DNA of 64,000 bases. Origin: Cyanobium sp. ATX 6A2 (GTDB lineage Bacteria > Cyanobacteriota > Cyanobacteriia > PCC-6307 > Cyanobiaceae). The first letter of the stretch is position 1. Every line of letters starts with the position of its first letter. Both the position numbers and the translations under genes were made by a program. The stretch is from NCBI RefSeq assembly GCF_024346355.1, contig NZ_JAGQCU010000014.1, positions 1 through 64,000 of the forward strand. Direction: 5' to 3'. This document shows positions 39,255 through 48,285 of this stretch, in pieces. Below the pieces are notes generated by a model. That model worked only from the letters and a program-made list of their open reading frames with translations, made no database searches and had not been told where the DNA came from.

Positions 39255-40940
39255 ATGGAGCGTTCCCCTGCAGGAGGCCGCCTGAGCCTGTGGCTTGCCC
39301 TGGCCCGCGAGGCGGGACGGGGGCACACGCTGCTGCTGGCCGCCCTGGCCCTGCTCAGCAGCCTGGTGGAGGTGGCGGGTCTGGGCCTGGCGGTGGGGGT
39401 GCTGCTGGGCAGTGGCGCCAGCAGCGCCCCGCCCTTGCCCGCTCCGGCGCTGGATCTGCGTCAGCTGCTGGGGCTGCTGGTGGGGCTGATGGCGGTGCGC
39501 GGGCTGCTGCAGGTGGGCATCGCCGTGCTTCGGGAATGGCTGAACAGCGCGCTCACCGACCGGCTGCGCAGCGACCTGCTCAGCCGCGTGCTGCACGCCT
39601 CCAGCCTGCGTCTGGAGCGGGTGGGCCGCGGCGAGCTGCTGGGCCTGCTGATGGACGACATCGACACCAGCGTGTACGCGCTGGACGAGGGTCTGCGCGT
39701 GCTGCAGAACCTGATCGCCCTGCTGATCTATGGCGGCGGCGTGCTGGTGGCTGGGCGCGGGCAGGCCGGGCCGCTGCTGCTGGGGTTGCTGGCGGCGGCG
39801 CTGGCGGGACTGCTGCAGCGCTCCGGCGCCTGGAGCCTGGGCACGCTGCACACCCGCCTGAATGCAGCCTTGCAGAGCATCGTGGGCGATGGCTTGCATG
39901 GCCTCAAGGCGGTGCGGGCGGCGGCCGCCGAGCCCTGGCTGCTGGCTCGTTTCGCTGCGGCGGCGCGCGACTACCGCCGCAACGCCCGCCGCACGCTGCG
40001 GCGTCAGGCGGTGTTCGCCGCCCTGCGCGACTGGCTGGTGGTGCTGGTGGTGGCGCTCTGGCTGGGGGTGGGCGGCACGGCGCTGGAGCCGGCGGCGGTG
40101 GCCACGGTGCTGCTGCTGGCCTACCGGGCGGCCGGGGCTCTGGGGGGCGTGATCAGCAGCCGGCGGTCGTGCCTGTGGGCGCTGCCGGGCTACGAGGCCC
40201 TGCGACAGTTGCGCGGCCGGCTGGGGGCTCCGGTGCTGGCGGCCGCCGCGCCCCGGCCGCTGCCGGCGGGGGCGGTGCTCCTGGAGGCCACCTGGCGGGG
40301 CCGCGGCCAGCCGGGCGTGACGCTCCGGCGCGGTGCCCTGGTGGCGGTGGTGGGACCTTCGGGCACGGGCAAGAGCACCCTGCTCGACCGGGTGGCGGGC
40401 CTGCTGGCTGAGGAGAGCAGCTCCTGGCAACTGCAGGCGGCTGGCCAGAGCGAGCCATTGGAGCTGGCGGGCAGCCAGGGGGCCGCGGCCTGGCGCACGC
40501 TGGTGGCCTACGCGCCCCAGGGGGCGGTGCTGTTCGAGGGCAGCCTGGCGGACAACCTGCTGCTGGGCCGGCTGCCGGACCGGCGTGAACGCGAGGCCCT
40601 GCTGGGGCCGTGGCTGGAGCAGCTGGGGCTGGAGCCGGTGCTGCAGCGGCCCGAGGGGCTCCACGAGCCGCTCAACCTGGCGGTGGACTGTTTCTCGGGG
40701 GGCGAGATCCACCGGCTGGGGCTGCTGCGGGCCTGGCTGCTGGACCACCGGGTGGAGCTGCTGGATGAACCCACGGCGTTTCTGGATGCGCAGGCGGCGG
40801 CGCGGGTAAGGCAGCTGGTGCTGGAGCGCAGCCAGGAACGCCTGGTGCTGGTGGCCACCCACGACCCGGAGCTGGTGGCGCAGGCGGCAGTGGTGATTCA
40901 GCCGGCGCGGTTTGAGCGGCAGGGGGGGGCGGTGCAATGA
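39255..40940 (+). CDS. ABC exporter, half-transporter with divergent ATPase motifs
   Basis: A 561-residue fused membrane/ATPase half-transporter beside the lasso-peptide cluster. Six membrane segments precede the nucleotide-binding domain, with Walker A GPSGTGKST, signature CFSGGE in place of LSGGQ, Walker B VELLDEP and H-loop ATHD. The ATPase lacks the usual Asp-Glu pair in Walker B only in context (VELLDEP keeps D and E). It may export the lasso peptide or act with the second ABC protein at 48.6 kb; the two flank the cluster. Divergent signature residues mark it as unusual. Confidence 0.85.
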   Translation: MERSPAGGRLSLWLALAREAGRGHTLLLAALALLSSLVEVAGLGLAVGVLLGSGASSAPPLPAPALDLRQLLGLLVGLMAVRGLLQVGIAVLREWLNSALTDRLRSDLLSRVLHASSLRLERVGRGELLGLLMDDIDTSVYALDEGLRVLQNLIALLIYGGGVLVAGRGQAGPLLLGLLAAALAGLLQRSGAWSLGTLHTRLNAALQSIVGDGLHGLKAVRAAAAEPWLLARFAAAARDYRRNARRTLRRQAVFAALRDWLVVLVVALWLGVGGTALEPAAVATVLLLAYRAAGALGGVISSRRSCLWALPGYEALRQLRGRLGAPVLAAAAPRPLPAGAVLLEATWRGRGQPGVTLRRGALVAVVGPSGTGKSTLLDRVAGLLAEESSSWQLQAAGQSEPLELAGSQGAAAWRTLVAYAPQGAVLFEGSLADNLLLGRLPDRREREALLGPWLEQLGLEPVLQRPEGLHEPLNLAVDCFSGGEIHRLGLLRAWLLDHRVELLDEPTAFLDAQAAARVRQLVLERSQERLVLVATHDPELVAQAAVVIQPARFERQGGAVQ

Positions 40941-41045: not shown

Positions 41046-41858
41046 TTACTGCCAACGGGTTATCGCTTGGCAACTATGACGCCGAATCTCTGGTAGCTCG
41101 GCCAGCTCTGGAAGGCAAAAGATCTCAGGCCACTGGGCAGGATTCACCAGCTTGCCAGTGCCAAGGGGAATGTAGTGAAAAAAGAGCAGATCACAGAACT
41201 CATCTCTGGCCGGCGAGGGAATGGGATCGCGGTAATGCCATTGGCTGCTCCCCGAGAACAGAATGGCATCCCCGGGCTTCAGCGCATAACTCTTGAAACT
41301 GAGTTCGGGATCATTGCGGATTGTATCGTCCCAGCTTCCTCCTTCAATGCCAGCCTCTGGCCAGGGCACGATCTGGCTGAGATGAATATCCCAGGGTTGG
41401 CTTTGCTGAATGCAGACATCAAGGGTGTACTTCGCCTGGGGGGCATCCATATGGATCGGGCAGCGCCCCAACCGAGAATACAAGCTTAGAAAGTTATAAG
41501 AAGGCTCTAGCGGTTCACCGGCAAGCTCTGACACGAAGCTGGTCAACCCCGTCTGAACTTCAGTGAGCCGAGGGTGATCGTGGAGTACCCAGCGACCGAA
41601 ACTTGCGGCCTCATGCAATTCGATCTCCTCATGCGACAGGGAGCGCGAGATGCGTCGAATTTCTTCCAGGAGTTCCTGGGGTAGAAAGCCCCATAGGTGT
41701 TGCACCTGGAAATCCTCACGTGTGCGAAGGATGTCCATCGCCAGCTGGAATTCAGCCAACCGCTCTGGATGGCGACTGCTGAGGAAGGCACTTGCTGCTG
41801 CATAGGCTGCCAACCATGAGGAGTCGTACCATGGATAGCTCGGGCTACGTGATGCCAT
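41046..41858 (-). CDS. Fe(II)/2-oxoglutarate-type oxygenase, lasso cluster
   Basis: A 270-residue protein. The facial triad candidates are His136 and Asp138 (CPIHMDAPQ) and His208 (SSQWHYRDP), with LKPGDAILFSG before the distal His, as in prolyl-hydroxylase-like double-stranded beta-helix enzymes. It is the last gene of the minus-strand cluster and overlaps the kinase gene by 14 bases. It may hydroxylate the precursor core, where Thr, Met, Asn and Gln are available. The frame extends upstream to 41897, but the Met at 41858 is the likely start. Confidence 0.7.
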   Translation of the reverse strand: MASRSPSYPWYDSSWLAAYAAASAFLSSRHPERLAEFQLAMDILRTREDFQVQHLWGFLPQELLEEIRRISRSLSHEEIELHEAASFGRWVLHDHPRLTEVQTGLTSFVSELAGEPLEPSYNFLSLYSRLGRCPIHMDAPQAKYTLDVCIQQSQPWDIHLSQIVPWPEAGIEGGSWDDTIRNDPELSFKSYALKPGDAILFSGSSQWHYRDPIPSPARDEFCDLLFFHYIPLGTGKLVNPAQWPEIFCLPELAELPEIRRHSCQAITRWQ

Positions 41859-42714
41859 CACCAAGGCCAGTATGGGTAAGGATCGCCTGGCGGACATCGG
41901 CCAAGGCCGTGTAGTTCCTAGGATAATCCAGGCGGAAGTGGATCGGTAGGGCGGCGAGGTTGGTTACCTGATTGAAATGGGAGGCCAGGCGGAGGTGTGC
42001 CTCAATGTCCAGCAAAAAGGAGTTCTTCACCCACTCGATCAGGGCTTGGGCAGGGCTGAGTGGCTCGATGGTTACTGCCTCGGCAATGCCCTCACCGAGG
42101 AAATACACATGGCGTAGGGGCTGGGGGCAGTCGCAGAAGCGCACCTGCTCTCCGGCCAGGAATCGGGATTTTGAGGTATAGCACACAACTGGAGCGGTGG
42201 GGGTATCTGACCCGATCAGCGCCTCGCTGGAGTCGGCCCAAAGGCGGATCGAGGGATGGCTGGGTAAAACGGTGTAGCCAGTGGCTGAGCGGTTGAGCAC
42301 CAGGCCATCATCGGTGAGGAAGGGATAGCCGTTGACGGCAAAGCTGGCCGCCAGGGTTGACTTGCCGCGACCTGATTCGCCGGCGAACACTGCGACACCG
42401 GAATCGATCGCCACGGCGCTGGCGTGGAACACCAGCTGGCCCTGAGTGCTGAGCATCAGCGGCAGCACCTGGTTGAGATAGAGATGCTCAACCGTGCCCA
42501 CGGACACTCCGGGTACCGGATGGGCCACCGAGGCATGTCCATCGCCGCTGATCTCGAAATCGGCCAGATCAGGAAAGCGCAGGAGGAAGCCTGCTTCCAG
42601 GCGATAGAACTCGGTCCACAGGGTGCCGTCTGGAAAGGCCCAGGTGTGGAAGGGGGCACGAGCGATGGGCGCCTGTACTTTCGCCTGCTGCAGATCAAGA
42701 GCGCTGGGCATCAC
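41845..42714 (-). CDS. HPr-kinase-like P-loop protein, lasso cluster
   Basis: A 289-residue protein with an HPr kinase/phosphorylase core: FHASAVAIDSGVAVFAGESG, P-loop GESGRGKST at 112-120, and FLTDDGLVL (metal/catalytic Asp pair) at 132-140. Homologues in some lasso clusters (for example those of paeninodin) phosphorylate a C-terminal Ser of the precursor core. Here the predicted core ends in Ser, which makes the same chemistry plausible. It overlaps the methyltransferase gene by four bases (ATGA), so translation is coupled. Confidence 0.82.
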   Translation of the reverse strand: MMPSALDLQQAKVQAPIARAPFHTWAFPDGTLWTEFYRLEAGFLLRFPDLADFEISGDGHASVAHPVPGVSVGTVEHLYLNQVLPLMLSTQGQLVFHASAVAIDSGVAVFAGESGRGKSTLAASFAVNGYPFLTDDGLVLNRSATGYTVLPSHPSIRLWADSSEALIGSDTPTAPVVCYTSKSRFLAGEQVRFCDCPQPLRHVYFLGEGIAEAVTIEPLSPAQALIEWVKNSFLLDIEAHLRLASHFNQVTNLAALPIHFRLDYPRNYTALADVRQAILTHTGLGDGIT

Positions 42715-43829
42715 TCGGAATCCTTGCCGAGAACCTGCATCACAAAGCGGGAGATCTCCTGAGCTGATGGAAACAGATCGGGGTGTTCACGCAGCACGAG
42801 CTGCTCGATCTCATGCACACTGCGCTCCCCATCGCAGTAGTGCAACACAGTCATCCGAGCCTGGCCTTCTCGGCTGAGTTGCGGAACTCTGTCCGGTTGA
42901 GCACGGACCAGGTCTTCAGGTGTCAATACCAGGCCCTGCCAGGTGGAGTGACTGAAGCGTTTGCCGGAGGCGGGAAACTCCACCACCCACGCAATCAGGT
43001 GATCGGCAGGCCGCGCCATCACAGTGGCTTTGATCACGTCACCGGCGCAGACCGGCACGGCTTCATCGATGGGCAGGAACGCCTGGGGGCGGTCGATGGC
43101 ATCGTCCACTAGTGGTGAGTTGGTCATCCAGACCCCTTCGACCAGTTTGCAGTCGAACCAGCCGGCTAGGCCATGCACCACCCCGTCGCGTTCGATGGGC
43201 AGCTCTGCTGACCAGGAGAAAAACTCGGGTTGATCGAGATGAAGATCGAGGTCATCGAGCATGGCTGGTTGGCCCAGAACGCACGTCGCGGGAAGCTTTA
43301 ACCCATGCTTTTCATTCACCGTAAGATTGCGCACCCAGTGGAACTCCGGCGGGATGCCTGCTTCCTGCCAGCCGTGGGCCTTTGCTTGGGCAGTTTCTGA
43401 TTCGACTGCACCAAGGTAGAGCCGAAGGCCGGCAGGGATCAGATGGCCACCGCGCTTGAGGAGGCGTGTGCGTGCATCCTGAAGGGTGTGGATGATTCCG
43501 TAATCGAATCCGAAGTAGCCCACATGATCGCAGATCACTAGATCGACCGGATCGGACAGTTCGACGCGCTGTGAAGGACTGCGGATGAATGTGCTCTTCC
43601 CATCAAGACCGGCCCGCTGAAAGGTTTCGCGGGCGACTTCGATGATGTCTGTCGAGTCGATGGCGAGCACGTGAGATGCACCCGCTTCACAACAGAGCAG
43701 GCCCAAGATACCGGATCCACAGCCTAGATCTACAACAGTATCGGCACTATCAACAACTTTGGCAATCGCTGACCTGAAGCGTTCTAGCCGGGTGCTGTCC
43801 TTGAGGTAGTCAAGATGCTCGCTGAGCAC
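42711..43829 (-). CDS. PRMT-like methyltransferase fused to a PqqD-like (RRE) tail
   Basis: A 372-residue protein. Residues 1-310 are a protein-arginine-methyltransferase-like SAM fold: DTVVDLGCGSGILGLLCCEA, an acidic loop AIDSTDII, and DLVICDHVGYFGFDYGII. The last ~50 residues (TVLHYCDGERSVHEIEQLVL then SRFVMQVLG) fit a PqqD-like RiPP recognition element, used by RiPP enzymes to grip leader peptides. So it may methylate the core or leader with its own recognition domain. It lies 29 bp after the precursor gene. Confidence 0.78.
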   Translation of the reverse strand: MLSEHLDYLKDSTRLERFRSAIAKVVDSADTVVDLGCGSGILGLLCCEAGASHVLAIDSTDIIEVARETFQRAGLDGKSTFIRSPSQRVELSDPVDLVICDHVGYFGFDYGIIHTLQDARTRLLKRGGHLIPAGLRLYLGAVESETAQAKAHGWQEAGIPPEFHWVRNLTVNEKHGLKLPATCVLGQPAMLDDLDLHLDQPEFFSWSAELPIERDGVVHGLAGWFDCKLVEGVWMTNSPLVDDAIDRPQAFLPIDEAVPVCAGDVIKATVMARPADHLIAWVVEFPASGKRFSHSTWQGLVLTPEDLVRAQPDRVPQLSREGQARMTVLHYCDGERSVHEIEQLVLREHPDLFPSAQEISRFVMQVLGKDSE

Positions 43830-43858
43830 GAGTGATCAGAGAAGGGGGGTAGCCGCGC

Positions 43859-44281
43859 TCAGCGTGGATGACGAGATATCCCGAGCATGCCATAGTCAAC
43901 CATCTTGTAACCACTTGGATGCTTGATTACAGCAGCTGGCATCACCTGTTCGACTTCCTGAGCGATCACGCCGAACTGGCGACCGTAGCCACAGGTTTCA
44001 CGGTATTCAGGCAAGTAATCAAACAAGTACAATCCGATGCCGATAGGGTGCTGATCGATTCTGATCACTCCGGTCTTGATGCGCCGGTCGGAACCCACAG
44101 TCATTTGTAGGGTTATAACGTTCATAGTAGATTGCCCTTCATTCATAGTCCCAGCGCCACCCTGCGTCAATGAACTAACACTCCCATAAACTTGCAATTG
44201 GGGTCGTTCGTAGCGTTTTTGGGTGGCAATGTCCTGCAGGTCAGTATGTCTTTGCTCGTCAGTGAAATCTTGTTGGTTCAT
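43859..44281 (-). CDS. Lasso-peptide precursor fused to a peptidase S74 domain
   Basis: A 140-residue precursor. Residues 1-40 are a leader with the YxxPxLxxxG motif (YERPQLQVYGSVSSLTQ at 24-40), ending in Thr39 at the penultimate position. The putative core begins GGAGTMNE, with Gly at 1 and Glu at 8 for the macrolactam. From about residue 64 it becomes a peptidase S74/endosialidase chaperone domain: SDRRIKTGVIRI, QFGVIAQEVEQVMP, GYKMVDYGML. In S74 proteins the Ser before Asp in SDxRxK is the cleavage Ser and the Lys five positions later is catalytic (here Ser64, Lys69). Self-cleavage there would leave a 24-residue core ending in Ser. It is lower in GC than the flanking genes. Confidence 0.88.
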   Translation of the reverse strand: MNQQDFTDEQRHTDLQDIATQKRYERPQLQVYGSVSSLTQGGAGTMNEGQSTMNVITLQMTVGSDRRIKTGVIRIDQHPIGIGLYLFDYLPEYRETCGYGRQFGVIAQEVEQVMPAAVIKHPSGYKMVDYGMLGISRHPR

Positions 44282-44365
44282 TTTTGGGTTGTTTGAGCTA
44301 ATTTGAGCTGAGTTAAAATGGTGTTCCCTCTTTGGGTGAAACCGCAGCCGGAAAGTCCAGCGGAC

Positions 44366-46291
44366 TTAGGCAGTAACTTTGACACGGCTCAGCCACTCGG
44401 TCAAGGAGGTCGCGGCGTAGGCATCATAGGTCGCATCGTCGCTCGTGCCCGCCTCGGCGCGAGGCAGCAAGGTGTGCAGTGCCTGACGATCCACGAACTC
44501 GCTGATCATGCGGTCGTGACGTTGCAGTGTGCTACGAACATGGGCGTGGTTCTGGGCCATCAAGCGGTGAACCAGGGTCATGCCTAGGTGGGCTTTGCCT
44601 CGGTGCCAGGCCACGCGGCTGCCGAGCAGTGATGCCGTGGCCTGCCGGACCACTGATTTTGTCCAGCCATTGTGCGCTTTGTTACTGAGCGGCAAGCGAA
44701 GGTAGAACTCCACCAGACGCCGATCCGACCAGGGATGGCGGGACTCGACGCCATAACGGGCCGCCACGGCGTTGAAGCCCTCCATCCCACTGACGAGCCC
44801 CGAGGGGACGAGGGCATGGATGTGGCGTTCCTGGTAGCTGAGCAGGCTGATCTTTCTCGCCTGCTCTTGTTGTTCCGCGATGCGTTCGCGGAGGTGAAGC
44901 TTCCTGGCGAAGTCGCGATTGATCAAACTGCCGCGAAACGGATCACGAATGCGAAGCTTTCCGGCGCGATATTTCAGTGATTTGGCGGCAGCTGGCGCAT
45001 ACACTCTCCAGAGGGCTCTAGCGAACAGAACCTCTGCGGAGTGGCCCTTGAGGTAAATATTGTTGTTGCTGGCTTGCCTGGCATGTGCCCATGCATGTCG
45101 CCAGCCGGATGAGTGAAGAATGCCAGCCACATAGCATCCAGGCGTGTGAGTTACCAGATCGCCATCGATGCCGTCGAACATCACGCGATGGCCTGCACGG
45201 CTGGCGGCCAGGTACATCATCGCGGGCAGAAGAATCGAGTTGCCAACTGGATGTGCATGCGTCCAGGCAGCGTCCTTGAGATCGTCGTCTGTGATCGTTC
45301 CGCGCAGGCTCGGCACACAGACCCAGTGTGCCTGCTGCTCGAATCCCATGCATACCGTCTGGATGTTCCGGCTTTCCTCGCATGAGGCTGGATCGTCTGC
45401 CACCACCGAATAGGTGTGCAGTTCACGGGAGGGCATCTCCGGCAGGATCTCGCGGGCCATGGCCGCGACACTGGCCGAGTCGATACCACCGCTCAGCATC
45501 AAGGCTGGGTGGCCCAGCGTTCGCATGCGACACTGAACCGCTTCACCGAACACCAACCAGAACGCTTCCACGCACTCCTGCTGAGAGGCGAACTGAAGTT
45601 CCTCCTGGGGCTCCAGTTGCCAGTAGGTTCGCATCACCCTGTGGCCGGAACGTTGCGCTGTGAGGGTGCTGCCGGCGGGGAGCTTGAGGATGTCAGCGAG
45701 CCAGCCGCGGTTGAAATCACCACCATCGAACGCGGGCAACAGGTTGGCAGCGATGAAGTCTTCGTTGAGTCTGCGAGATACTCCAGGGATGCCCAGCAAT
45801 GCCTCTTCGTCTGAAGCAAAGGCTAGACCGTCTTTGTTGGCAAAAAAGTAGAAGGGTTTGACTCCGAGATGGTCGCGCGCCAGGACAAACCGTTGCTGCT
45901 TGCTGTCCCAGATCGCCACTGCAAACTCCCCGAGCAGCTGGAGAGGGAAGTCCTCCCCCCACGTTTCGTAGGCCCGCAGCACCAGTTCGGCATCGGAACG
46001 ATTGCGTAGCACCGCGCCTCGCCCCAGCAGTTCGCGCCGCAGTTCCTCCCCGTTGTCCACCCGTCCATCCATCACCAGCACCAGGCTTTCGCCTTCGTTG
46101 GTGAGCGGCTGGGATTCCTCCAGCGATTCCGGCGTGGTGCGCAACATGCAGTGGCCCAGGGCCACCGAACCCCTGCGCCAATGGTGGATACCGTCCGGGC
46201 CGCGATGGGCCATGGCCGAAGTCATCCCCTCGATCAGCCCGTGCTCCACGGGCTTGCCATCGAACTGGATGATCCCCGCGATCCCGCTCAT
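44366..46291 (-). CDS. Lasso cyclase (asparagine synthetase-like, Cys2 absent)
   Basis: A 641-residue asparagine-synthetase-type protein, the lasso C protein that adenylates the Glu/Asp side chain and forms the ring amide with Gly1. The N-terminus is MSGIAGIIQ, so the glutaminase nucleophile Cys2 is Ser: no ammonia from glutamine, as in other lasso cyclases. The ATP-binding motif is LSGGIDSAS (267-272 core). It overlaps the B2 gene by four bases and precedes the precursor by 84 bp, on the same strand. Confidence 0.9.
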   Translation of the reverse strand: MSGIAGIIQFDGKPVEHGLIEGMTSAMAHRGPDGIHHWRRGSVALGHCMLRTTPESLEESQPLTNEGESLVLVMDGRVDNGEELRRELLGRGAVLRNRSDAELVLRAYETWGEDFPLQLLGEFAVAIWDSKQQRFVLARDHLGVKPFYFFANKDGLAFASDEEALLGIPGVSRRLNEDFIAANLLPAFDGGDFNRGWLADILKLPAGSTLTAQRSGHRVMRTYWQLEPQEELQFASQQECVEAFWLVFGEAVQCRMRTLGHPALMLSGGIDSASVAAMAREILPEMPSRELHTYSVVADDPASCEESRNIQTVCMGFEQQAHWVCVPSLRGTITDDDLKDAAWTHAHPVGNSILLPAMMYLAASRAGHRVMFDGIDGDLVTHTPGCYVAGILHSSGWRHAWAHARQASNNNIYLKGHSAEVLFARALWRVYAPAAAKSLKYRAGKLRIRDPFRGSLINRDFARKLHLRERIAEQQEQARKISLLSYQERHIHALVPSGLVSGMEGFNAVAARYGVESRHPWSDRRLVEFYLRLPLSNKAHNGWTKSVVRQATASLLGSRVAWHRGKAHLGMTLVHRLMAQNHAHVRSTLQRHDRMISEFVDRQALHTLLPRAEAGTSDDATYDAYAATSLTEWLSRVKVTA

Positions 46292-46776
46292 GCCGGAACG
46301 ATGATCTGATCGGCCGATGCCCGTTCAACCGGTTCAACCCGTTCCAGGGGCAGAAACCGCTCAGCCACATCCGCGCCGTCGTTGAGGGGGTGGCCGTGGC
46401 TTTCGATCCAGGCGTGGGCCTGCAGCTGGCCGTTGATCAGCTGCACGCCCAGGCGCAGATCGGTGGGCACTCCGCGCCGGTTCAGCAGCCATTGCAGCAC
46501 CAGCGAACGGGTGAGGCAGTTGTCGGGGGGAAGCAGGGTGTGGGCTGCGGCGTTGACGAGCTTGCCCAAGTGCCTCAGCGCTTCAAGGGAGGCGGGGCTG
46601 CCGGCACTGGCAGCATCGATTGCGGCTCCATTGCGGCAGCTCAGCTCCCAGCGGCCCAGCAGTTTCACGCGCACCCAGAACACTGGCAGCAGCAACACGC
46701 TGCCCAGCACCACACGTCTGGAGTCGGCGTCGAGGGCTCTGAAGCGCCGTGCCTTGCGTCGCCAGGAGCTGATCAT
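46288..46776 (-). CDS. Lasso B2 protein (transglutaminase-like leader peptidase)
   Basis: A 162-residue protein with the transglutaminase-like triad of lasso B2 enzymes: Cys87 (NCLTRSLVLQWLL), His121 (AHAWIE) and Asp133 (PLNDG). B2 removes the leader after the conserved Thr-x site. It overlaps the cyclase gene by four bases. The B1 recognition partner is encoded divergently 42 bp away. Start at the ATG; an adjacent upstream N-terminal hydrophobic stretch (VLGSVLLLPVFW) is common in the family. Confidence 0.9.
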   Translation of the reverse strand: MISSWRRKARRFRALDADSRRVVLGSVLLLPVFWVRVKLLGRWELSCRNGAAIDAASAGSPASLEALRHLGKLVNAAAHTLLPPDNCLTRSLVLQWLLNRRGVPTDLRLGVQLINGQLQAHAWIESHGHPLNDGADVAERFLPLERVEPVERASADQIIVPA

Positions 46777-46818
46777 CTGCGTAGTTTATCGGGGTTGATG
46801 CTCGCCTCATCGGCAGCC
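46777..46818. promoter_or_regulatory. Divergent promoter gap between B2 and B1 genes
   Basis: Only 42 bp separate the start codons of the minus-strand B2-cyclase-precursor operon and the plus-strand B1 gene. Both promoters must lie here or overlap the coding starts; I cannot name boxes. Confidence 0.4.
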
Positions 46819-47157
46819 ATGTCCACAAACCCCAAGACAGACGCGGCCCCAGACCAAGCGGCAGCCCCGGAGCCGCTCACGCTTGCGGCCCGCCTCACGG
46901 TGCCCGCCGAGGTGATGGACCGCAGCGTGGGGGATGAAACGGTGATCCTGCACCTGGCCACGGGCACCTACTACGGCCTGGATCCGGTGGGAGCACGGAT
47001 CTGGGAGCTGATCGGCGCCGGGCAGTCCCTGGCCGACATCCGCGATCAGATGCTGCAGGAGTATGCGGTGGAGGCTGAGCAGCTCGAAGCGGATCTGCTC
47101 AAGCTGGTGCACGACCTGCTCGCCCAGGGCCTGGTGGGGATCGACGCTGAGGCGTGA
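46819..47157 (+). CDS. Lasso B1 protein (PqqD-type leader recognition)
   Basis: A 112-residue PqqD-like protein. The core VGDETVILHLATGTYYGLDP then IWELIGAGQSLADIRDQMLQ and LVHDLLAQGLV matches PqqD/RRE proteins that bind the lasso leader and deliver it to B2. Translation starts at the ATG at 46819, or 46798. It stands alone on the plus strand, divergent from B2 and convergent with the nucleotidyltransferase-family gene. Confidence 0.88.
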   Translation: MSTNPKTDAAPDQAAAPEPLTLAARLTVPAEVMDRSVGDETVILHLATGTYYGLDPVGARIWELIGAGQSLADIRDQMLQEYAVEAEQLEADLLKLVHDLLAQGLVGIDAEA

Positions 47158-47167
47158 GCGAGGAGCT

Positions 47168-48253
47168 TCAGCGTTGCCGGCGCACACGCTCGCGCCATCC
47201 CTCAACACCACGCCGGATGTAGAGCCAGGGCAGCCCCCAGCTGCTGGCGTCTGGGTATTTGCTCAGCATGTAGCGCCTGGACGGCACGATCTGGCCCCGC
47301 AGGTAGCGGAGGCGTGCCCTCCAGCCCTGCATCCCCCGCAGGATCAGGATCTGGGCGGCCAGCGGCCGGCCATCGATGCGGGTGATCGCGCTGCGCCACT
47401 GGTCTTGTCCGGCCTGGTGCAGTTCGGCGAGCACGGCCGGGGGGATGCCGGTGTGAAAGCGGGTGTTGGCACGCTCGAGAAAGGCGCCCACAACGCCAGC
47501 CACCTCCAGATCGATCGCTCGGGCCACGGCGCTCCGCCTGTCGGCAGCGTTCATCCGCTGCCAGAGCAGGTCGCCATCCAGCAGCCACTGGGCCGGCCGG
47601 TCGCCTTCATCGTGGTGGGCGAAATAGTGCAGCGCTGAGTGCAACAAGGCGTCCACGGGGCCGAGGCCAAAGGTGTGGTGGCCGGCGATCGTGATGGCCT
47701 GGCGCCGGCGCCAGAGGGCCTCGAAGCTGAACAGGGGTGCGAAGGCCGGATGGCTGAACAGGTGCCAGTGCAGATCGATCAGCACCGGATGTCGGTGGAT
47801 GGAGCCCTGCCAGCCATCCTGCGCCTCCATGGTGAGCACCATCGGAGCCCGGTTGGGCGTCAAGCCAAGGCGCTCCAGCACCGCCTGGGCCGCCTGGCGC
47901 TGGTGGGGGGCCACCAGCAGATCGGTGTCGCTGCGCAGACGCTGGGCCTGGGTGTCGTACACCGTGTGGGCCAGCAGGGTGCCCTTCAGCACCAGCACCC
48001 GCAGGCCGGCCCGCTCGAGGGCCTCGATCACCACCCGGTCCGCCGCCGGGTGATTGCCGCCCTGGTGCTCAGCCCCACCCCAGGCTGCCAGGTCTGCCAG
48101 CTCCGGGGGCACCAGCCCACGGCGTTCCAGGATCGGCAGGGCCGGCAGCAGCCGGTCGCCGGCCAGCTGGGTGAGTTCCCCGATCAGGCGAGCAGCCTGC
48201 GATGGCGTCGCGGCGTTCAGAGCACCAAGGCCTGGATTGAGCCCCATGAGCAT
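47168..48253 (-). CDS. Nucleotidyltransferase-family (NTP_transf_5-like) protein
   Basis: A 361-residue protein. VLVLKGTLLAHTVYDTQAQR then LRSDTDLLVA fits the NTP_transf_5 fold: Gly-rich loop, then a metal-binding Asp-x-Asp. Family members are repeatedly found in lasso and other RiPP clusters, where some modify the product by adding nucleotides, but the function of most is unproven. It is convergent with the B1 gene (10 bp apart). Start chosen at Met 48253 or 48247. Confidence 0.8.
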   Translation of the reverse strand: MLMGLNPGLGALNAATPSQAARLIGELTQLAGDRLLPALPILERRGLVPPELADLAAWGGAEHQGGNHPAADRVVIEALERAGLRVLVLKGTLLAHTVYDTQAQRLRSDTDLLVAPHQRQAAQAVLERLGLTPNRAPMVLTMEAQDGWQGSIHRHPVLIDLHWHLFSHPAFAPLFSFEALWRRRQAITIAGHHTFGLGPVDALLHSALHYFAHHDEGDRPAQWLLDGDLLWQRMNAADRRSAVARAIDLEVAGVVGAFLERANTRFHTGIPPAVLAELHQAGQDQWRSAITRIDGRPLAAQILILRGMQGWRARLRYLRGQIVPSRRYMLSKYPDASSWGLPWLYIRRGVEGWRERVRRQR

Positions 48254-48285
48254 GGCCGATCCACCCACACCGCGCCCCAATCAGC

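Follow-up and report, generated by a model that had tools for sequence, protein, structure and literature searches.

How the C-terminus of a lasso-type peptide might be formed is a question raised by one gene of the window, the whole 64,000-nucleotide stretch of Cyanobium sp. ATX 6A2 DNA analysed here. Its product carries a lasso leader and a putative core, and runs on into a domain of the peptidase S74 family.

The precursor gene and its neighbours

The gene is organised as follows.

43859..44281, minus strand: precursor gene A (lasso leader, core and short S74), 140 residues, stop codon at 43859-43861
44162..44281, minus strand: leader, residues 1-40, NF033521 at 21.5 bits (cut-off 19)
44183-44212, minus strand: YxxPxLxxxG motif, residues 24-33, reading YERPQLQVYG
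44093..44161, minus strand: putative core, residues 41-63, GGAGTMNEGQSTMNVITLQMTVG, 23 residues if the cut precedes Ser64
43862..44092, minus strand: short S74 domain, residues 64-140, as predicted from PF13884 (34 bits), AlphaFold2, Foldseek and mapping of the dyad
44090-44092 and 44075-44077, minus strand: codons of Ser64 and Lys69

The open reading frame, first described in an earlier note on this DNA, is real: it encodes 140 residues on the minus strand, without internal stop. The lasso leader model NF033521 of NCBIfam matches residues 24-42 above its cut-off, with Thr39 at position -2 and Gln40 at -1. The core starts with Gly41 (residue 1), and Glu48 (residue 8) is the putative ring acceptor. 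A leader model match, a Thr at -2, a Gly at position 1 and an acidic residue within positions 7-9, which characterise lasso precursors, are all found. The Pfam model PF13884 (Peptidase_S74, cut-off 22) matches residues 64-118 over positions 1-57 of its 58. As the curated cut-offs are passed for both leader and S74, the earlier description of a YxxPxLxxxG leader with penultimate Thr, a core with Gly start and Glu at position 8, and an S74 domain in a single gene holds. So does the register of the dyad, with Ser64 in the motif SDRRIK and Lys69 five residues later; the same dyad occurs in the two other fusions presented below. The S74 domain had been called complete, which is correct for the Pfam profile but not for the full ICA (intramolecular chaperone auto-processing) domain, the C-terminal coiled coil of which is absent.

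The genes of B1, B2 and C adjoin the precursor gene, within the following set.

39255..40940, plus strand: ABC transporter, CydC/CydD-like, 561 residues, with an uncertain link to the cluster
41046..41897, minus strand: 283-residue protein beside the kinase, without Pfam match
41845..42714, minus strand: HprK-like kinase, 289 residues, TIGR04352 at 39.3 bits, below the cut-off of 200; homologues in related clusters
42711..43829, minus strand: methyltransferase, 372 residues, weak PRMT-like matches among others
44366..46291, minus strand: lasso cyclase C, asparagine synthetase-like, 641 residues, PF00733/PF13537; NF033535 at 476.7 bits, below the cut-off of 525
46288..46776, minus strand: leader peptidase B2, 162 residues, NF033537 at 76.1 bits (cut-off 33), PF13471
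46819..47157, plus strand: B1, PqqD-family recognition protein, 112 residues, PF05402 at 70.9 bits (cut-off 23.4)
47168..48280, minus strand: NTP_transf_5 nucleotidyltransferase, 370 residues, PF14907 at 111.9 bits
48613..50520, plus strand: ABC exporter, HepA/MsbA-like, 635 residues, possible exporter of the product

B2 passes a lasso-specific NCBIfam model. B1 and C are recognised by Pfam models and stay below the lasso-specific NCBIfam cut-offs, which for B1 are those of the PqqD models; NF033535 is nevertheless the best NCBIfam match of the cyclase. The 283-residue protein displays an HxD...H pattern that recalls Fe/2OG hydroxylases, and may be one of these. The C-terminal end of the methyltransferase appears PqqD-like by eye. 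The core beside this PRMT-like methyltransferase contains neither Arg nor Lys.

The kinase and the nucleotidyltransferase suggest that the product may be phosphorylated and possibly glycosylated, as in other lasso clusters known from partially available reports; this would not be specific to S74. The kinase was considered as a proof of a C-terminal Ser and was set aside: BsfK, the kinase of a similar cluster, acts on Ser3 according to the available part of its description (PMC10368454), and S74-less relatives of the cluster also carry the kinase.

The lasso cluster looks acquired, because of its base composition and of the rarity of its components among relatives. The G+C content is 49.4% in the precursor gene, 61.4% in the stretch 41049-48280 and 65.4% in the window outside 39.0-50.6 kb, and 400-base values climb to 0.73-0.80 flanking the cluster on either side. 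The cyclase was found at E ≤ 1e-70 in three of 149 genomes (the window genome and its relatives), namely the window genome and two others of the same class, and in none of the 12 same-genus genomes listed among them. The precursor search of the same 149 genomes matched the window genome only. Among 386 genomes of the phylum, leader matches (E ≤ 0.1) occur in 16, with 13 over the cut-off, and S74 matches in 108, the window genome being the sole S74-bearing member of its own family. Genome G314, with a 438-residue frame, is absent from the phylum genomes with an S74 match.

Recurrence of the fusion and position of the S74 domain

A precursor matched in one genome out of 149 could result from a sequencing, assembly or gene-call error joining two genes, and the earlier note had named a local error as grounds to abandon the fusion. 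This explanation is hardly credible, as the same join was found at the same place in two other genomes, one of which has homologous neighbours. For the same reason, the leader-core-S74 fusion is real rather than due to chance.

The leader was searched for in 337 genomes of Alphaproteobacteria, the class that includes Bradyrhizobium neotropicale. Eight of them carry a leader, which in one (G815) is followed by a core and S74 within a single frame of 119 residues (L149). A profile of the window and G815 proteins was then run on 149 genomes of the family of G815. It matched six: G815 itself, a genome with a third fusion (G635, of the same alphaproteobacterial family), three with S74 in other frames, and one with an S74-less leader. 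The Ser and the Lys were never required in these leader model and profile searches. Beyond G815 and G635, the profile revealed no fusion in 137 genomes of the order or 150 of the phylum; these draws overlap and are therefore not independent samples. The open frames of L108-L110 (72, 90 and 78 residues) are too short for a fusion.

PF13884 is above its cut-off in both additional fusions. NF033521 is borderline in the G815 protein (17.5 bits in one run, 19.4 in another, for a cut-off of 19), and no match to this model was reported for the G635 protein. All three fusions have a Thr at -2, a Gly at core position 1 and an acidic residue at position 8, which is Glu in the window and Asp in G815 and G635.

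The gene order in G815 is cyclase, fusion gene, methyltransferase, then kinase and B1. No B2 is present in this cluster; the only B2 match of the genome is found on the same contig at a distance of about 1.3 Mb. The fusion of G635 (L159:9282-9674) is an orphan gene, which converges with a gene of the TauD family (L159, 9671-10645). Its other neighbours are transporter and sugar-metabolism genes by eye, and no match to the other lasso proteins of the window was found in the surrounding 19.5 kb. An S74-less lasso cluster (L151) is also present in G635, about 0.2 Mb from the orphan fusion.

Such S74-less relatives show where cores of this type end. A methyltransferase profile matched four of the 149 genomes of the family (G815, G734, G635 and G944), and S74-less precursors adjoin the methyltransferase in G734, G635 and G944. 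A fourth S74-less precursor, in G934, has no methyltransferase match within the 18 kb read. The leaders of these four precursors are similar to those of the fusions, and residue 8 of their cores is Asp. Their cores are ended by a stop codon after 17 (G734), 21 (G635), 24 (G944) and 17 residues (G934), whereas the putative fused cores, counted up to the residue before the Ser, comprise 23 (window), 16 (G815) and 25 residues (G635). As the two sets of lengths compare, the S74 domain is placed at the normal core end, where it takes the place of the stop codon. A Met immediately precedes the Ser in two of the three fused cores, and a Met is found among the last five residues in three of the four unfused ones. 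The earlier note had proposed a 24-residue core ending at Ser64. The Ser is indeed where cores end in the S74-less relatives, but family precedent, described below, gives 23 residues.

Only two of the five methyltransferase-bearing clusters (that of the window and four others) have an S74 domain. It is therefore dispensable for this cluster type, as three of the five do without. The methyltransferase is kept in clusters of both kinds.

It was also considered that an internal start just before Ser64 might yield S74 additionally, or mainly, as a separate protein that acts beside the peptide. All three fusions have an in-frame ATG at most 33 bases before the Ser codon, and a 4-mer resembling a Shine-Dalgarno sequence precedes this ATG by 4-11 bases. 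However, synonymous recodings yield the same pattern in 100%, 23% and 40% of cases, so that the pattern is no evidence for separate translation. As the reading frame is moreover continuous, separate production of S74 is very improbable.

Fold, descent and possible cleavage of the S74 domain

Residues 64-140 of the window protein are predicted to fold as an S74/ICA domain, in line with the S74 fold anticipated in the earlier note. In the AlphaFold2 model of the window protein, block-mean pLDDT values are 88-95 for residues 61-130 and 44-57 for the leader and core. The G815 model has the same structural elements as that of the window protein, and in both only the S74 part is predicted with confidence. 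A Foldseek search against viral models, thus comparing predicted models only, gave for the window model a best E-value of 2.2e-9 (probability 1.00) with an 'Intramolecular chaperone auto-processing' protein. Against the PDB, the ICA domain of MyRF came first for both the window (E = 0.12) and G815 (E = 0.047) models, as weak matches. Structural alignment with VIA-align was likewise weak, with Z-scores of 4.4 for MyRF, 2.6 for two ICA chaperones and 2.4 for unrelated entries. Profile matching gave 3.2e-5 with MyRF and 5.4e-4 with a long tail fibre.

The domain is short. The Ser is 77 residues from the protein end in the window and 75 and 79 residues in the other fusions, all three of which lack the C-terminal trimeric coiled coil; the last helix has four residues in both AlphaFold2 models. 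The best S74 matches in viral contigs are the ends of predicted phage proteins, 63-74 residues from the Ser, and other viral-contig matches have longer ends. An origin from tail fibres was considered and set aside, as phrog_6121 (virion structural protein) is the best match of the window protein, the G815 protein and all three phage proteins tested. Phrog_4287 (DNA ejection protein) is among the matches of four of these five proteins.

A tree of S74 domains (39 rows, 70 columns) places the three fusions inside a 15-row group (support 96/98) with short S74 domains of phages and alphaproteobacterial genomes. Measured along the paths of this tree, the non-fusion rows closest to the S74 of the window are phage virion and DNA-ejection protein ends, with up to 60% identity. 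The fusions come together with a support of 74/82, which is not firm.

These relationships raise the possibility that S74 is a captured phage fragment with no present role in maturation, acquired by recombination, the tail being trimmed by host proteases. Phage domains are indeed the nearest relatives, the precursor gene is AT-rich in comparison with the stretch around it, and relatives of the same cluster type do without S74. The degree of conservation argues against it. Between the window and G815, identity is 57% (43/75) in S74, 33% in the cyclase (602 aligned residues), 44% in the methyltransferase, 39% in the kinase, 38% in B1 and 31% in the core; S74 thus exceeds all of these, and only the 17-residue leader end (59%) is as high. 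Moreover, the three fused S74 lie on one side of a branch in the tree, which, with its limited support, is compatible with a single ancient capture retained in distant genomes. An idle fragment is on balance improbable.

Short S74 domains also end proteins unrelated to lasso peptides. A species-collection scan with the window protein gave 41 loci, 37 of which end in a short S74 of 87-89 residues and belong to Bradyrhizobium or its family. Two proteins from among the closest cellular relatives of the S74 domain were considered as lasso precursors and discarded: L062:6582-8264 of Bradyrhizobium is a DUF3300 protein ending in a short S74, and L103:7659-8318 of Rhizobium, with a short S74 end as well, contains a Ser/Gly linker. 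The latter is a plasmid protein with an apparent lipobox and a PF13884 score of 21 bits (cut-off 22), encoded directly downstream of a caspase-family gene. Of 56 plasmid records found with the window protein, 51 are from Rhizobium. None of the matches in plasmids (56 and 68 records) or phages (nine records) spans over 80% of the query. In plasmids, two methyltransferase queries gave no match and the cyclase was matched in two records at E ≤ 1e-40. Two scans of viral contigs gave 33 loci and one locus (L178); no lasso leader was found within 60 residues before the Ser in the 33 S74 loci.

The position of a cut may be deduced from known members of the family. According to the accessible portions of the reports, MyRF is cleaved between P586 and S587, as determined by mass spectrometry (PMC8326128), and T5 pb1 at Thr1263-Ser1264 (PMC4690869). 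The earlier note had placed the cleavage after Ser64, and this precedent contradicts it: both proteins are cut before their Ser, so that the cut in the window protein would probably fall before Ser64, between Gly63 and Ser64.

In the same available text on MyRF (PMC8326128), S587 and K592 are indispensable, and cleavage is perturbed when R590, Y615 or Y617 is altered. Ser64, Arg67, Lys69 and Tyr89 of the window protein, identical in all three fusions, align with S587 (which is Ala in the chain compared), R590, K592 and Y617, respectively. The position of Y615 is occupied by Phe in all three; at that of Q639 the window protein has Gln, and the G815 and G635 proteins have Asp. The Ser and Lys are invariant in an alignment of 31 S74 rows; as 28 of these rows were chosen by their Ser...Lys pattern, only the fusions count as evidence for the dyad.

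Cleavage of MyRF requires trimers, for the formation of which the C-terminal coiled coil is mainly responsible, as far as the accessible text describes it. As this coiled coil is absent from all three fusions, their trimerisation, and hence autocleavage, is in doubt. The domain might instead stay in place, or leave late, as a carrier, stopper or display domain, yielding a natural lasso-protein conjugate in which the ring would encircle a tail terminated by a folded and perhaps oligomeric protein. Fusions of astexin-1 to GFP or to a leucine zipper have been engineered successfully, according to the part of PMC8498205 available, so that ring closure may proceed despite a C-terminal domain. The short S74 that ends Bradyrhizobium and Rhizobium proteins with export signals apparent by eye is also consistent with such a role. 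However, a pure carrier would need neither the Ser, Arg and Lys of the cleavage site, which are kept in all three fusions, nor a Ser at the usual core end. Retention of the domain is less likely than its self-removal for this reason, but it is the main rival reading.

Proposed maturation and known systems

A self-removing C-terminal S74 domain that sets the C-terminus of the core of a lasso-type precursor is the explanation that we favour, at slightly better than even chances. From the architecture of the gene, its neighbours, the recurrence of the fusion, the shared dyad and the predicted fold, we infer the following chemical steps, threading and autocleavage included. B1, a PqqD protein, would bind the YxxPxL leader, and B2 would cleave the leader after residue 40. 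C would link Gly41 to the side chain of Glu48, giving an 8-residue ring. S74 would fold, and Ser64, activated by Lys69, would cut the Gly63-Ser64 bond, whereupon S74 would depart, either before or after ring closure. A fused autoprotease, in place of a stop codon, would thus define the C-terminus of the 23-residue core. The calculated mass of the resulting macrolactam, prior to tailoring, is 2278.04 Da ([M+2H]2+ 1140.03, or 1183.54 with Ser64 retained). The methyltransferase, the HprK-like kinase and the nucleotidyltransferase may tailor the product, and an ABC transporter may export it.

The chemistry of the family may involve an ester that links Gly63 of the core to Ser64. If this is true, another nucleophile could take over the activated end, and the C-terminus would then be modified or conjugated instead of being a free acid.

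More broadly, it is proposed tentatively, with somewhat less than an even chance, that these genes represent a class of RiPP in which a fused phage-type S74 autoprotease is a self-excising follower defining the C-terminus of the lasso core. Lasso precursors normally end at the core, and three genes place there a domain of a self-cutting family; a phage-type virion module occurs in a biosynthetic gene. If the cleavage is real, it would be a new way to make the C-terminus of a RiPP, and would offer a natural means of releasing lasso peptides or of loading them. With S74 retained, the product would be a natural lasso-protein conjugate, where the examples found were engineered. The fusion also bears on whether a short S74 without coiled coil can cleave at all. 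Searches of a collection of open-access papers gave no published example of a lasso-S74 fusion.

The gene shares with YxxPxL lasso precursors accompanied by B1, B2 and C (NF033521, NF033537, PF05402) the leader motif, the Thr at -2, the Gly at position 1 and the acidic residue 8. These precursors end at the core, whereas that of the window runs on into a folded S74. With the S74/ICA domains of endosialidase NF, T5 pb1 and MyRF, it shares a nearly full Pfam profile, the Ser-Lys spacing and the predicted fold, and the active-site Arg and Tyr of MyRF are matched. It differs from these three proteins by the lack of the C-terminal trimeric coiled coil and of an upstream beta-helix, and by the N-terminal partner of S74, which is a RiPP core instead of a fibre or a transcription factor.

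The bsf cluster of Bradymonas sediminis has in common a precursor, B1, B2, C, a transporter, a kinase and a nucleotidyltransferase; S74 and a methyltransferase are not named in the available part of its description, where the kinase acts on Ser3 (PMC10368454). The engineered astexin-1 fusions (Zong et al. 2016, as related in the accessible text of PMC8498205) carry a folded protein on the C-terminus of the lasso, as in the window, but they are man-made, with a flexible linker and no autoprotease.

The S74 domains of phage virion structural and DNA ejection proteins (phrog_6121, phrog_4287) often end soon after an xYGxL motif, 63-74 residues from the Ser. They are attached to a virion protein, and that of the window to a RiPP precursor. 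In the borosins and the plant burpitides, too, the RiPP precursor is joined to a catalytic domain, the substrate of which is the precursor's own core. The domain modifies or cyclises the core in these systems, whereas the S74 domain of the window would make its C-terminus.
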